Translations under genes and position numbers: made by a program
Assembly: GCA_019637805.1 (NCBI GenBank)
Contig: JAHBVB010000001.1
Coordinates: forward strand, 385,875-449,874
Length of the DNA stretch: 64,000 bases
Direction: 5' to 3'
DNA from: Anaerolineales bacterium
GTDB taxonomy: Bacteria; Chloroflexota; Anaerolineae; Anaerolineales; UBA11579
Notes under the pieces: model-generated
What the model saw: only the letters and a program-made list of their open reading frames with translations
Databases searched by the model: none
Told to the model about the DNA's origin: nothing
Shown here: positions 37,002-44,129 of the stretch, in pieces
Position numbering within the stretch: position 1 is the first letter of the stretch
How the letters are laid out: each line of letters begins with the position of its first letter

Positions 37002-38207
37002 ATGCGAAAAACCCTCCGCCCTCCCGCTGGCGTGGCGCTAGTCGTATCCTTGGCTTTGTTGTTCGCCTCACCAGCGCCTGCCGCCGCCGCGCCCGGCCCG
37101 CTGTGCTATGTGCGCCCTGGCGGCCCGGGGCCGGATGGGGATTCCTGGGCCACGGCCTATGCCAACCCTCAAGATGCCCTGGCAGACCACAGCTGCACAG
37201 AAATCTGGGTAGCTGGGGGCACTTATCTGCCGGACGAATCTGACCCCGGCAACCAAACCCTCAGCTTCGGCCTCAAGACCAGCGTAGAGATCTATGGCGG
37301 TTTTGTGGGCACGGAATCCCAGCGGGACCAGCGGAATTGGCTGGCCAACCAAACCATCCTCAGCGGCAACATTGGCGCCCCAGGCGATAACACGGACAAC
37401 AGCTACCATGTAGTGGTCGGCAACGCCGGCCCTTCCAGCATACTGGACGGCTTCATCATCCGTGACGGCTACGCCCATGGGCTCGGCGGTGGGCATAACC
37501 TAGGTGGCGGCATCTTGATAAACAGCGGCAGCCCGACACTACGCAACCTGAGGATCGCAGACAATCAAGGCGCACTCGGCGGCGGCATGTACGTTGGCCA
37601 GGGCAACCCGGTGCTTAACCAAGTCATCTTTATCGACAATTCCGCCGACTTTGCAGGGGGTATGTATGCCCAAGAAGGAAGCTCCACGCTGACCGATGTC
37701 ACCTTTGATAGAAATGAGGCTACCAGCGCGTTGGGCGGCTGGGGCGGCGGTTTGGCGATCGCTACCAGCACGACCAGCGCCACGCTGAACAACGTGACCT
37801 TCTCCCGCAACACGGCACAAGGCCCGGGTGGCGGCATGTACAACGGGGGCAATGTCTTGCTGACCAATGTCACTTTCGCTTTCAACGAGTCCGTTTCCGG
37901 AGGTGGCGCCTTTCACAATTTGGACAGCGGCGCCACGATCAACCATGCCACCTTTCGGGACAATGACGGCCTGGGCGACAGTCTGATGCTGGAGGCCGGT
38001 GCAGTCACCGTGACCAACAGCTTGTTTGGTATCACAACGGCCGCTCACTTCAATTTGACCGGGCGGCAGCCTGGCTGTCATCGACAGCCTGGTGCCGGTG
38101 GCCTGCCCGCTGATCGCCGGCTTAGCCTGCACCAACGTAATTGTCGGCGCCACGCTGCTGGGCGCGCTGCAGAACAACGGCGGCTTCACCCAGACAATGC
38201 ATATTGA
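37002..38207 (+). CDS. broken surface protein, 5' fragment: signal peptide and first beta-helix module
   Basis: The ATG at 37002 opens a secreted protein with a signal peptide (LVVSLALLFASPAPAAAA). A right-handed beta-helix-type module follows, with short repeats of the form LxNVTFxxNxAxxGGGMxN, as in polymorphic outer-surface or parallel-beta-helix proteins. The real sequence similarity ends near residue 352, at a GGG run (38061-38063). After it about 48 residues are an out-of-frame tail ending at 38207. Removing one G restores a frame that joins the downstream fragment. I therefore read this as the front half of a single gene spanning 37002-40518. The pairing is strengthened by the fact that the downstream fragment repeats the same module. 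Confidence 0.82.
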   Translation: MRKTLRPPAGVALVVSLALLFASPAPAAAAPGPLCYVRPGGPGPDGDSWATAYANPQDALADHSCTEIWVAGGTYLPDESDPGNQTLSFGLKTSVEIYGGFVGTESQRDQRNWLANQTILSGNIGAPGDNTDNSYHVVVGNAGPSSILDGFIIRDGYAHGLGGGHNLGGGILINSGSPTLRNLRIADNQGALGGGMYVGQGNPVLNQVIFIDNSADFAGGMYAQEGSSTLTDVTFDRNEATSALGGWGGGLAIATSTTSATLNNVTFSRNTAQGPGGGMYNGGNVLLTNVTFAFNESVSGGGAFHNLDSGATINHATFRDNDGLGDSLMLEAGAVTVTNSLFGITTAAHFNLTGRQPGCHRQPGAGGLPADRRLSLHQRNCRRHAAGRAAEQRRLHPDNAY

Positions 38208-38352: not shown

Positions 38353-40518
38353 GTGGATGCGGACATTAGCTGGGCGGGCAGCGGCAGTTCTTGGGCCGCC
38401 GCCTATCGCGACCTGCAGCATGCCCTGATCAACAGTAACTGCAAGGAAATCTGGGTAGCCGAGGGTACTTACAAGCCGGACAGCGGCACCGGTGACCGCG
38501 ATATTAGCTTCGTGCTCCCGTTCACCGGAGTGGAGATTTATGGCGGCTTCACTGGCATCGAGACCCTACTGAGCGAGCGCGATTGGCAGGCGAACCCCAC
38601 CATCCTCAGCGGCGAGATCGGCGCGTTGGGCTCCACGGACAATTCCTACCACGTGGTCATCGTCGGCGGGCCACACCTCCCGATCGTGCTGGACGGCTTC
38701 ACCATCCGCGATGGCTATGCCGATGGGCCAGGCTTGCATACCGAGGGCGGCGGCATGTATATCGACGGCGGCAGCCCCACGCTCGCCAATCTGATAATTA
38801 GGGACAACCATGCGCCCCTGGTCGGCGGCAATGGCGGCGGCATGTTAAATAGTGCGGGCTCTAACCCGGCTTTGGTGAACGTTGCCTTGATTAGCAACAC
38901 CACTGCTGGACAAGGCGGCGGGATCTACAACCGGACCTCAAACCCCTCCCTTTTGGATGTCACGTTTACCATGAATTCGGCCTTTGCTGGCGGCGGGATG
39001 GCCAACCTCAACAGCGACCCGTTTATAGATAACACCACGTTCGATCGAAACAGTGCTGTCAATTCAGGTGGCGGTATCAGTAACCTGAGCAGTGACCCGG
39101 TTCTCAACAACGTAACTTTCCACAACAACACTGCGCCCGTTGGAGCCGCCATGGAGAATGCCGGCGGCATGCAGACTTTGAACAATGTGACCTTCAGCGA
39201 CAACACAGCCTCCCTTCAGGGCGGCGCTATGCGCAATGGTGTCAACAGCAATATGCAAATCAACAACAGCATCCTGTGGGGCAATACACCGGGTGAAATT
39301 GTGAGTGTATCTGCTGGAGTGACCCTCACCATCAACGACAGTTTGGTGCAAGGCGGCTGTCCAGTCGGGCTCGGAACCATCACTTGCAGCGGCGCGCGGC
39401 TGACTGCCGACCCGCTGCTCGGCCCGCTACAAGACAACGGCGGCCTCACCCACACTTTCGCCCTGGGAGCCGCCTCGCCGGCCATCGACGCCGGCAACAG
39501 TTCCACCTGTCTGGCGGCCGACCAGCGCGGCGTGACTCGCCCACAGTACGCTGGCTGCGACATGGGCGCCTACGAATACGATGGCGCGCTGCCGCCGGCA
39601 GAGGGCGGGCGCTCCCAACGGGGCAGCAAAGGGATTGACCCGGGCGGCCTGACCCGGCTCGACTTTGGGCGCATTGCGGTGCTGGTGCCTGCCGGAGCGC
39701 TTTTTGGCGACGGCCAGGATTGCTCAGTCTCGATAGAGATGCGAGGCGATTCGGCAGAATTCGGCTTCCAGCTGGACGACACGGTCTGGGATGTGAAAGT
39801 GCTTTGCAAGGAGCGCCCAGTCAACCTCTTCCAGTTACCGCTCAGCGTATGCATCCGGCCTGTGGATGGCGTGACCGGGGATAAGAACGTTTACCACCGT
39901 CACGCCGAAGCTGATTTTGCCCCATTGGCTGGCAGCAACGATCTGCCAGGGTTTGTCTGCGGGAAAACCCGCACGCTCTCACTGTTCACCCTCGGCCAGC
40001 TGGCCCTGCCCGCCACCGGCTTTGCGCCGGGTGCGGTCACCCAGATGGCCGTCCAGCCCGTCGAACTGACCTACGCGGCCAGCGACATGACCCTCAGCAT
40101 CCCCAAGCTGGGCCTGGAGCTGGACATCCTCGGCGTGCCGCAAGGGCCGAACGGTTGGGATGTGAGTTGGCTCTCCACCGACCAGGCGGGCTACCTTTAC
40201 GGGACCACTTTCCCGACTTGGAAAGGCAACTCTGTGCTCACCGCCCATGTCTGGAACGCGGACAACACCCCTGGCCCCTTCTATGCCCTCAAGAACCTGC
40301 AGCATGGCGACCGCTTCAGCATCTCGGCATACGGCCAAACCTACATCTACGAAGTGCGCAGCAACCGCCTGATCAACGAGAGCAATCTGAATGTACTGGC
40401 CTCAAGCAGTAACTATTCGCAAATCACCTTGATCACCTGCGAGACCTTTGATGCCGCCAGCGGTGAGTATCTCTATCGGCGGGCGGTGGGGGCGGTGCTG
40501 GTGAGCGTTAGCCAATAG
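38353..40518 (+). CDS. broken surface protein, 3' fragment: second beta-helix module, LPATG motif and sortase domain
   Basis: This frame is open from the TAG at 38263-38265 to 40518; 38353 (GTG) is only the first possible start, and it has no signal peptide. It repeats the module of the upstream fragment (CYVDADISWAGSGSSWAAAY against CYVRPGGPGPDGDSWATAY). A four-cysteine module, the motif LPATGFAPG (40006-40032) and a C-terminal sortase domain follow. The presumed catalytic residues are His in TAHVWNAD (residue 632), Cys in LITCE (696) and Arg in YRRAV (709/710). The sortase part starts at SIPKLGL and is of the class seen in exported Chloroflexota and actinobacterial sortases. If translated alone it would stay in the cytoplasm, so it is probably a pseudogene half. 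Confidence 0.8.
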   Translation: MDADISWAGSGSSWAAAYRDLQHALINSNCKEIWVAEGTYKPDSGTGDRDISFVLPFTGVEIYGGFTGIETLLSERDWQANPTILSGEIGALGSTDNSYHVVIVGGPHLPIVLDGFTIRDGYADGPGLHTEGGGMYIDGGSPTLANLIIRDNHAPLVGGNGGGMLNSAGSNPALVNVALISNTTAGQGGGIYNRTSNPSLLDVTFTMNSAFAGGGMANLNSDPFIDNTTFDRNSAVNSGGGISNLSSDPVLNNVTFHNNTAPVGAAMENAGGMQTLNNVTFSDNTASLQGGAMRNGVNSNMQINNSILWGNTPGEIVSVSAGVTLTINDSLVQGGCPVGLGTITCSGARLTADPLLGPLQDNGGLTHTFALGAASPAIDAGNSSTCLAADQRGVTRPQYAGCDMGAYEYDGALPPAEGGRSQRGSKGIDPGGLTRLDFGRIAVLVPAGALFGDGQDCSVSIEMRGDSAEFGFQLDDTVWDVKVLCKERPVNLFQLPLSVCIRPVDGVTGDKNVYHRHAEADFAPLAGSNDLPGFVCGKTRTLSLFTLGQLALPATGFAPGAVTQMAVQPVELTYAASDMTLSIPKLGLELDILGVPQGPNGWDVSWLSTDQAGYLYGTTFPTWKGNSVLTAHVWNADNTPGPFYALKNLQHGDRFSISAYGQTYIYEVRSNRLINESNLNVLASSSNYSQITLITCETFDAASGEYLYRRAVGAVLVSVSQ
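40006..40020 (+). other. LPATG sorting-type motif in the broken surface protein
   Basis: These five codons encode LPATG, followed by FAPG, about 16 residues before the start of the sortase domain of the same chain. There is no hydrophobic segment with a basic tail after it, unlike classical sortase substrates. Confidence 0.75.
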
Positions 40519-41480: not shown

Positions 41481-41508
41481 TTGACAAATTCAAAATCATC
41501 TTTATAAT
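41481..41508 (+). promoter_or_regulatory. near-consensus sigma-70 promoter of the MFS exporter operon
   Basis: A perfect -35 TTGACA (41481-41486) and a perfect -10 TATAAT (41503-41508) are separated by 16 bases, in an AT-rich island. Transcription should start near 41515, just before the AAGGAG ribosome site of the leader peptide. It is the strongest promoter seen in the window. Confidence 0.88.
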
Positions 41509-41529
41509 TTCTCGCATAAGGAGTTAAAA

Positions 41530-41571
41530 ATGTTTATTTCTCTACTTTTGCGCTTTAGATTTCTGTTTTAG
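41530..41571 (+). CDS. 13-residue leader peptide MFISLLLRFRFLF upstream of MFS exporters
   Basis: A perfect AAGGAG lies 6 bases before an ATG that opens a 13-codon frame encoding MFISLLLRFRFLF. It ends in TAG three bases before the ATG of the first exporter. The exporter has no ribosome site of its own, so its translation must depend on ribosomes leaving the leader. The peptide contains Arg-Phe-Arg, which fits the Arg/Lys-X-Arg/Lys arrest motif of macrolide-responsive leader peptides (as in ErmDL and the mef leader, where it is Arg-Leu-Arg). The exporters resemble Mef-type macrolide efflux proteins. That it senses a ribosome-targeting drug is an inference. Confidence 0.72.
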   Translation: MFISLLLRFRFLF

Positions 41572-41574
41572 CGA

Positions 41575-42846
41575 ATGGCTAAAGAACAATCAAAAGGCTG
41601 GCAGCGCCCTTTCTTCCAGGTGTGGACCGGGCAGGCGCTTTCCCTGCTGGGCAGCCAGCTTGTGCAGTTCGCGCTGGTTTGGTATCTAACCCGCCAGACC
41701 GGCTCGGCGACCGTGTTAGCCACAGCCACCCTGGTGGCGATGCTGCCCAACATCCTGCTGGGCCCCTTGGCCGGCTCGTTCGTAGACCGCGGCGACCGCA
41801 AGCGCATCATGATCGTAGCCGACGCGGCGATCGCCTTGGCCACGCTGGCGCTGGCCGGCCTGTTCGCCCTGGGCTGGGTGCAGATCTGGCACATCTATTT
41901 ACTGCTGATGCTGCGCGCCCTGGGCGGCGCCTTCCACAGCCCGGCTTTCAGCGCCTCGACCTCGCTGATGGTGCCCAAGGAGCATTTGCCGCGCGTGCAA
42001 GGCGTCAACCAAATGCTCAACGGCGGCCTGAGCGTGGTGGCCGCCCCGCTGGGCGCCTTCCTGCTGGAGCTCTTGCCGACGCAGGGTGTGTTGGCGATCG
42101 ACCTGGTGACGGCGACGGTTGCCATCCTGGCGCTGCTGCCGGTGCGTATCCCGCAGCCAGAGCGCCAAACCCCGGCCAACGCCGAGAAACCCAGCTTCTG
42201 GAGCGATTTTCGTGACGGTCTGGACTATGTGCTGGGCTGGCCGGGGCTGCTGATCTTGCTGGTGATGTCGATGCTGATCAACGTGCTGTTCAGCCCGGCC
42301 ATTTCCCTGATGCCGCTGCTGGTCAGCCAACATTTCCAGCAGGGCGTCCTGCAGCTGGGCTGGCTGCAGGGCATGTGGGGTTTGGGCATCATCCTGGGCG
42401 GCCTGGTGCTGGGCGTGTGGGGCGGCTTCAAAAAACGGATTTACACCTCACAGATGGGCCTGCTGGGTCTGGGCCTGGCCTTCGGCCTGACCGGCCTGCT
42501 GCCCGCCAGCGGCTTGCAGCCCGCCCTGGGCCTGATCCTGCTGGGCGGTATGATGCTGCCCATGTCCAACGGCTCGTTCTGGGCGGTGATGCAGGCCACC
42601 GTGGACCCCGAGCGCCAGGGGCGGGTCTTCGCCCTGGTGATCAGCCTGGCCAGCGCCATGGCCCCGGTGGGCTTGCTGCTGGCTGGGCCACTGGTGGACC
42701 AGTTCGGCGTGCCGTTCTGGTACATGCTGGCGGGCAGCCTGTGCGCCATTATGGGCATCCTGGGCTTCCTGCACCCCGCCGTACGCAATTTGGAAGCTGG
42801 ACGACCGATCCCCTCTGAGGCGGCCAACGCCTCTAGCAAAGGTTAA
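41575..42846 (+). CDS. MFS efflux transporter, macrolide-efflux (Mef)-like, first copy
   Basis: The 423-residue protein has twelve predicted helices. Its N-terminal pattern is characteristic of the MFS_3/Mef group: RPFFQVWTGQALSLLGS, TGSATVLATATLVAMLP and the loop GPLAGSFVDRGDRKRIMI with the MFS DRxxRK-type signature. Proteins of this group export macrolides or other drugs, or siderophores, using the proton gradient. It follows a leader peptide by three bases and precedes a closely similar second copy by 8 bases. The substrate is not known. Efflux function is inferred from family and regulation. Confidence 0.88.
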   Translation: MAKEQSKGWQRPFFQVWTGQALSLLGSQLVQFALVWYLTRQTGSATVLATATLVAMLPNILLGPLAGSFVDRGDRKRIMIVADAAIALATLALAGLFALGWVQIWHIYLLLMLRALGGAFHSPAFSASTSLMVPKEHLPRVQGVNQMLNGGLSVVAAPLGAFLLELLPTQGVLAIDLVTATVAILALLPVRIPQPERQTPANAEKPSFWSDFRDGLDYVLGWPGLLILLVMSMLINVLFSPAISLMPLLVSQHFQQGVLQLGWLQGMWGLGIILGGLVLGVWGGFKKRIYTSQMGLLGLGLAFGLTGLLPASGLQPALGLILLGGMMLPMSNGSFWAVMQATVDPERQGRVFALVISLASAMAPVGLLLAGPLVDQFGVPFWYMLAGSLCAIMGILGFLHPAVRNLEAGRPIPSEAANASSKG

Positions 42847-42854
42847 TTGCTGTT

Positions 42855-44129
42855 ATGACAACTGAAACCCGCAATCAGTGGAAACGCCCTTTCTTTCAAG
42901 TCTGGATCGGCCAGGCCTTTTCCCTGCTCGGCAGCCAGCTGGTGCAGTTCGCCCTGATCTGGCACCTGACCCGTGAGACCGGTTCGGCCACGGTACTGGC
43001 CACCGCCACGCTGGTGGCGATGCTGCCGATGATCCTGATCGGCCCGCTGGCCGGCTCCGTGGTGGACCGCAGCCAGCGCAAGCGCATCATGATCCTGGCC
43101 GACAGCGGTATCGCCCTGGCCACGCTGGCCCTGGCGGCCCTGTTCGCCTTCGGTCTGGTCGAGGTCTGGCACATCTATGTATTGTTGATGCTGCGTTCGC
43201 TGGGCCAGGCGTTCCATGGTCCGGCGATGACCGCCTCAACCTCGCTGATGGTGCCCAAAGAGCACCTGGCGCGCATCCAAGGCGTCAACCAAATGCTCAA
43301 CGGCGGCCTCAACATCATCTCGGCCCCGCTGGGCGCGCTGCTGCTGGAGCTGCTGCCGATGCAGGGCGTGCTGGCCATCGACGTGGTCACGGCCCTGATC
43401 GCGGTGGTGGCCGTGCTGCCGATCAGCATCCCCCAGCCGGAGCGAAAGCCAAATGGCGCCGACGGCAAGCCGGCCACCTTTTGGGAAGACTTCCGCGAAG
43501 GTTTCCGCTATGTGCTCAGTTGGCCGGGCCTGATGGTGGTGCTGATCATGGCGGCGCTGATCAACTTCCTGCTGACTCCGGCCGGGGCGCTGCTGCCCTT
43601 GCTAATCACCAAGCACTTTGAAAAAGGCGTGATCGAGCTGGGCTGGGTCAATGCGCTGTGGGGCAGCGGCGTGGTGCTGGGCGGCCTGCTGCTGGGCGTG
43701 TGGGGTGGCTTCAAAAAGCGCATCCTGACTGTCTTCAGCGGCCTGGTGTGCCTGGGCCTGGCTGCAGCCGGCATGGGCCTGTTGGCCCCGCAGCACTTCA
43801 CCTGGCTGCTGGCCCTGTTCCTGATCGAAGGCGTGATGGGGCCGGTGGTCAACGGCTCGCTGGGGGCAGTCATGCAGGCCTCGGTAGACCCCAGCCGGCA
43901 GGGCCGCGTCTTCACCCTGCTGACCAGCTTCGCCACCGCCATGACCCCGCTGGGGCTGCTGGTGGCTGGTCCTATCTCGGATGCCTTCGGCATCCAGATC
44001 TGGTATCTGATCGGCGGCGGGCTGTGCGCGCTAATGGGCCTGGCGGGTTTCTTCATCCCCAGTGTAATGAACATTGAAGCCGGCCACCCGCAAGAACTGA
44101 CAAAGCCAATCCCTGAGACCGCGGCGTAA
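42855..44129 (+). CDS. MFS efflux transporter, macrolide-efflux (Mef)-like, second copy
   Basis: A 424-residue paralogue of the preceding gene. The two align along their whole length with long shared stretches (ASTSLMVPKEHL, GVNQMLNGGL, LGVWGGFKKRI), pointing to tandem duplication. Twelve helices and the MFS loop GPLAGSVVDRSQRKRIMI are present. Differences cluster in helix-lining positions, so the copies may differ in substrate or work as a pair. It lies 8 bases after copy one in the same operon and is followed by a strong terminator. Confidence 0.88.
   Translation: MTTETRNQWKRPFFQVWIGQAFSLLGSQLVQFALIWHLTRETGSATVLATATLVAMLPMILIGPLAGSVVDRSQRKRIMILADSGIALATLALAALFAFGLVEVWHIYVLLMLRSLGQAFHGPAMTASTSLMVPKEHLARIQGVNQMLNGGLNIISAPLGALLLELLPMQGVLAIDVVTALIAVVAVLPISIPQPERKPNGADGKPATFWEDFREGFRYVLSWPGLMVVLIMAALINFLLTPAGALLPLLITKHFEKGVIELGWVNALWGSGVVLGGLLLGVWGGFKKRILTVFSGLVCLGLAAAGMGLLAPQHFTWLLALFLIEGVMGPVVNGSLGAVMQASVDPSRQGRVFTLLTSFATAMTPLGLLVAGPISDAFGIQIWYLIGGGLCALMGLAGFFIPSVMNIEAGHPQELTKPIPETAA

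Follow-up and report, generated by a model that had tools for sequence, protein, structure and literature searches.

A 13-codon leader open reading frame (ORF) lies in front of two Mef-like exporter genes in an Anaerolineales genome (Chloroflexota) and, on comparison across its genus, this leader is a real ORF that is selected as a peptide. It probably serves as an obligatory ribosome-loading ORF to which the exporter is translationally coupled, on a transcript predicted to begin almost at the leader's Shine–Dalgarno (SD) sequence. Ribosomes would initiate at AAGGAG and the ATG at 41530, end translation at the TAG at 41571 and reinitiate at the SD-less exporter ATG at 41575 (termination–reinitiation coupling). 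The leader would thus be translated, exporter synthesis would depend on it and an SD lying so close to the 5′ terminus may also shield the mRNA. All positions refer to the window, the complete stretch of 64,000 nucleotides that was analyzed.

Table 1 Predicted features of the leader–exporter locus (window coordinates)
Feature	Coordinates	Strand	Description
Promoter, TTGACA-16-TATAAT	41481..41508	+	12/12 consensus matches; −35 at 41481-41486, spacer 16, −10 at 41503-41508
Predicted transcription start	41515..41516	+	Placed ~7 nt past the −10; predicted 5′ UTR ~15 nt
AAGGAG, leader SD	41518..41523	+	Anti-SD duplex −7.4 kcal/mol
Leader ORF, MFISLLLRFRFLF	41530..41571	+	13 codons; ATG at 41530, TAG stop; conserved in genus
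Arg8-Phe9-Arg10 (+X+ motif)	41551..41559	+	CGC TTT AGA, codons 8-10 of leader
Exporter A	41575..42846	+	Mef-like MFS, 423 aa; ATG at 41575, start without SD
Exporter B	42855..44129	+	Mef-like MFS, 424 aa; paralogue of A, 65% identical; follows A

The locus occupies a gap of 22–31% G+C within surroundings of ~65–70% G+C. A first-pass annotation of this DNA had described a promoter, an AAGGAG and a 13-codon ORF whose stop lies three bases before an exporter lacking a ribosome site, and the sequence agrees with that description at each position, the promoter being a full consensus match (Table 1). The −10 and AAGGAG are separated by 9 nt, AAGGAG and the leader ATG by 6 nt, and the leader TAG and exporter ATG by 3 nt. 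This combination of TTGACA, TATAAT, short UTR and AAGGAG occurs only once in the whole genome, and the anti-SD duplex energy is +0.4 kcal/mol at exporter A versus −7.4 kcal/mol at the leader. Both exporters match the TIGR00900 model (259 bits for A and 258 bits for B); with the MefA model they score 249 and 254 bits against an NCBIfam cut-off of 675, and so miss the curated Mef cut-offs. By these profile scores, they are Mef-like major facilitator superfamily (MFS) proteins and not Mef proper. The closest named relatives of the source genome are metagenome-assembled genomes, such as TGS_CHL2, with an exporter 98% identical, and ACE_CHL1. Elsewhere in the window, positions 38353-40518 (+) encode a 721-aa protein that combines, in a single chain, a repeat of the Chlamydia-PMP-like kind, an LPATG motif (40006-40020) and, at the C terminus, a sortase domain (PF04203, residues 581-716); it may be a sortase that carries its sorting signal with it. 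Just upstream of this related ORF, positions 37002-38207 (+) hold a beta-helix frame (PF13229) with a divergent-looking C terminus, possibly a frameshifted neighbour or duplicate.

The first-pass annotation had made conservation of the leader in close relatives one of the tests of its proposal, and the leader does recur. Of 11 genomes compared within the genus, all encode relatives of the exporter, as one gene or as two in tandem, and nine share the promoter, the AAGGAG and the start of the leader; these nine are related to one another and are not independent samples. Across the nine, the promoter matches 10–12 of 12 consensus positions, AAGGAG is identical and the −10 lies 9–10 nt from it, placing the predicted transcript start a few bases 5′ of the SD throughout. 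The peptide reads MFISLLLRFRFLF in G000 and G009, MFISFLSRFKFFF in G001, G002, G004 and G007, MFISFLSRFRFLF in G008 and MFIYLSQFFRFLH in G010; in G003 it begins MFNSSLSSFTFLFQ and, the original stop having been lost, runs for 45 codons. The remaining two genomes (G005 and G006) have a promoter and no SD-led leader, and their exporter has its own SD. In G004, G007 and G008 (L113, L115 and L116), near-perfect promoters overlap a Fur-box-like palindrome of the GAAAATGAAATTCATTTTC type, just before AAGGAG.

Outside the genus, exporter relatives carry their own SD and no such leader. Comparable SD-led leaders were absent from eight relatives in other genera of the family and from 60 more exporter loci across the order, and the leader DNA pattern was detected in seven of 400 genomes of the order, all seven within the genus. 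We therefore rejected the idea of a widespread module; the leader is a selected ORF before Mef-like exporters, limited to one genus. AT-rich, near-perfect consensus promoters are common among Anaerolineales exporter relatives even where there is no leader (L054, L060, L104, L086, L094 and others).

Selection on the leader is visible in its substitutions. Parsimony reconstruction of the seven leaders with RF[RK] gave two changes at first, two at second and 15 at third codon positions (15 of 19; P = 6 × 10−5), a bias indicating that the amino acids of the leader are under selection. Eight further genomes of the genus have the ORF at almost the same distance from its SD, and this recurrence, together with the substitution pattern, takes the ORF beyond chance. 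With selection acting on the peptide and not on the SD alone, how the peptide passes through the ribosome is probably important, most likely because slow or drug-sensitive elongation at Arg-Phe-Arg/Lys may tune coupling or mRNA lifetime.

The motif itself has a more uneven history. Taken by itself it is weaker evidence, since 4–13% of random open 13-codon frames of similar composition contain [RK]x[RK]. It is retained in seven of nine homologous leaders. The seven genomes belong to one exporter clade (support 100/99), in which Arg8 varies synonymously (CGC/CGT) and residue 10 changes from Arg to Lys. Expected conservation of RxR thus held within this clade, including the Arg-to-Lys change, and failed in two deeper homologues, G010 (QFFRF) and G003 (SSFTF). 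The first exporter of G010 is a long-branched neighbour. G003 (L013), where the 45-codon frame joins the leader to its exporter, has a single exporter gene that falls among the paralogues of the second gene (B); exporter A thus seems to have been lost, leaving the leader adjoining B. On these phylogenetic placements, RxR is kept where the main-clade exporter A is kept and not in every leader.

Translational coupling best explains how initiation signals are distributed. The leaders' own SD energies are −7.1 to −7.4 kcal/mol in all nine genomes, and the exporter SD is weak or missing in every one of them. Median exporter SD energy is −2.4 kcal/mol with a leader (n = 9) versus −6.4 kcal/mol without (n = 70; Mann–Whitney P = 1.3 × 10−5, ignoring relatedness). 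Weak SD-like letters precede the exporter in G001, G002, G007 and G008 (−2.6 to −3.9 kcal/mol), so some independent exporter initiation may occur there. The leader stop lies 3 nt from the exporter start in G000 and G009 and 12–15 nt from it in G001, G002, G004, G007 and G008, while in G010 the two overlap as TGATG (gap of −1 nt). The extended frame of G003 terminates 2 nt before the exporter start, and the persistence of this proximity after loss of both the original stop and RxR argues that coupling is the constant feature. A stop near a downstream start with a weak or absent SD (here at gaps of −1 to 15 nt), conserved in relatives, is what marks coupled leader cistrons. For comparison, the median distance from −10 to exporter start is 51 nt in 39 leaderless relatives with a recognisable promoter. 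We also considered readthrough of the TAG into the exporter, which is in frame in G000 and G009, and rejected it as a general mechanism because the distances are not multiples of three in G001, G002 and G010.

In a rival account, which we hold to be possible though short of probable, coupling is purely constitutive: an AT-rich SD–leader module would sustain high, steady initiation in a G+C-rich genome, the peptide would have no sensing role and its conservation would reflect constraint on codons, hydrophobicity or initiation rate. Transfer of the SD to the leader, the strong consensus promoter, the lack of a structural switch and the survival of coupling after RxR loss in G003 all fit this account, but third-position bias across the whole leader points to amino-acid selection that a mere ribosome-loading ORF would not need. 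Even without sensing, the locus is a clean natural case in which the ribosome-binding site has shifted to a selected 13-residue leader, leaderless close relatives retaining an SD of their own.

Drug sensing could account for the peptide, although we consider it doubtful. With a macrolide or ketolide bound in the tunnel, the ribosome would arrest when Phe9 occupies the P site and Arg/Lys10 the A site, much as at Arg-Leu-Arg of ErmDL, and exporter output would rise with no hairpins to rearrange, perhaps because the 5′ end is shielded from decay. Ketolides arrest ribosomes chiefly at +X+ motifs near the N terminus, and in ErmDL the stall comes when the P site holds the middle residue and the A site the second Arg (PMC8298421); MefAL, the leader peptide of streptococcal mef, likewise contains Arg-X-Arg (MTASMRLR; PMC10314930). 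In Bacilli, mRNA gains stability from a ribosome stalled, or a strong SD placed, close to its 5′ end, as in 5′ stabilisers of the ermC type (PMC3997798), but elsewhere the stabilisation of erm mRNA required no stalling (PMC5118997). The Mef-like character of the exporters and retention of R8-F9-[RK]10 in one exporter clade, with Arg8 synonymous and Arg replaced by Lys at residue 10, also favour sensing. Against it, RxR is missing in G010 and G003, and arrest is context-dependent, with some +X+ sequences failing to arrest (PMC8298421). In addition, with +16 as its front edge, a ribosome arrested at codon 9 of any of the eight short leaders would reach to 1–17 nt from the exporter start on the upstream side and would thus occlude that start, so any gain in output must come through mRNA protection or another route.

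The host ribosome itself is probably compatible with macrolides. Its 23S rRNA reads GACAAAAAGACC, which by eye and in E. coli numbering we take to keep A2058, A2059 and A2062, with 2057A and 2611U. Macrolides could therefore bind, a point in favour of sensing, and we rejected an unusable ribosome (A2058G). The 23S macrolide site carries 2056A/2057A and 2611U instead of the E. coli bases, in the source genome (L126; C2, ~29.6 kb), and the bases are the same in five genomes of the genus. Taken together, drug-dependent arrest at the leader is plausible, if unproven. The fuller proposal, a hairpin-free antibiotic sensor in Chloroflexota in which macrolide-dependent arrest at Arg-Phe-Arg/Lys and a leader SD at the mRNA 5′ end would control the exporter pair through reinitiation coupling or mRNA lifetime, we judge unlikely. 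Should the leader sense drugs, some 60 nt would suffice for a minimal sensor that is based on the ribosome and has no attenuator hairpin. We found no description of such regulation in Chloroflexota in the literature, of which our coverage is incomplete.

An arrested ribosome in this position could instead act as a brake, lowering exporter translation when elongation is slow or the ribosome is drug-bound, an improbable reading. Besides where an arrested ribosome would sit with respect to the exporter start, it is favoured by the codon at leader position 10: AGA is absent from the 160 Arg codons of eight neighbouring genes, which makes slow decoding a drug-free alternative to arrest. However, shutting down a presumed resistance exporter in the presence of drug would make little physiological sense.

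Structural searches gave no sign of an RNA switch. We found no common fold across the nine species' leaders, no special masking of the leader SD or exporter start relative to synonymous recoding, only weak pairs of inverted repeats as candidate operators, and none of the alternative hairpins or terminators between leader and resistance gene that typify erm, mef and bmr attenuators. Classical translational or transcriptional attenuation through alternative hairpins is thus very improbable despite the general likeness to erm, mef and bmr leaders: the predicted ~15-nt 5′ UTR and 3-nt gap are too small, the leader and exporter have no terminator between them, the exporter start is at least as open as it is behind synonymously recoded leaders, and there is no Rfam match. 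The earlier remark that no hairpin lies downstream was borne out, whereas its attenuator reading fell, since no attenuator exists and arrest at RFR would leave the ribosome sitting on the region of the exporter start, which it would block instead of exposing.

Among known systems, ErmDL (MTHSMRLRFPTLNQ) and MefAL come closest in layout: a short ORF that carries Arg-X-Arg close to its N terminus leads into a macrolide-resistance gene, here a Mef-like exporter whose role in resistance is putative, and MefAL precedes a Mef exporter. The likeness is one of motif, with no sequence homology claimed, and any drug response of the present leader is putative. Those systems have long leaders (the mef promoter lies ~350 bp upstream) with attenuator structures, in contrast to ~60 nt in total, no hairpin and an SD-less exporter here. 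Bacillus subtilis BmrB likewise precedes a two-gene drug-exporter operon, bmrCD, and its ribosome is the sensor (PMC4191407); BmrB is, however, 53 aa long with an internal intrinsic terminator and anti-terminator (PMC4191407), neither of which occurs here, and BmrCD are ABC transporters whereas the present exporters belong to the MFS. The 5′ stabilisers of Bacilli (the ermC leader and STAB-SD; PMC3997798) likewise have a strong SD at the mRNA 5′ end or close to it, as predicted here, to which ermC adds a stalled-ribosome roadblock. Lastly, coupled leader cistrons of the UGAUG type have a stop and start a few bases apart and a downstream gene without an SD, as seen here and most literally in the TGATG of G010, but the upstream cistron at this locus is a 13-codon peptide that is under amino-acid selection.
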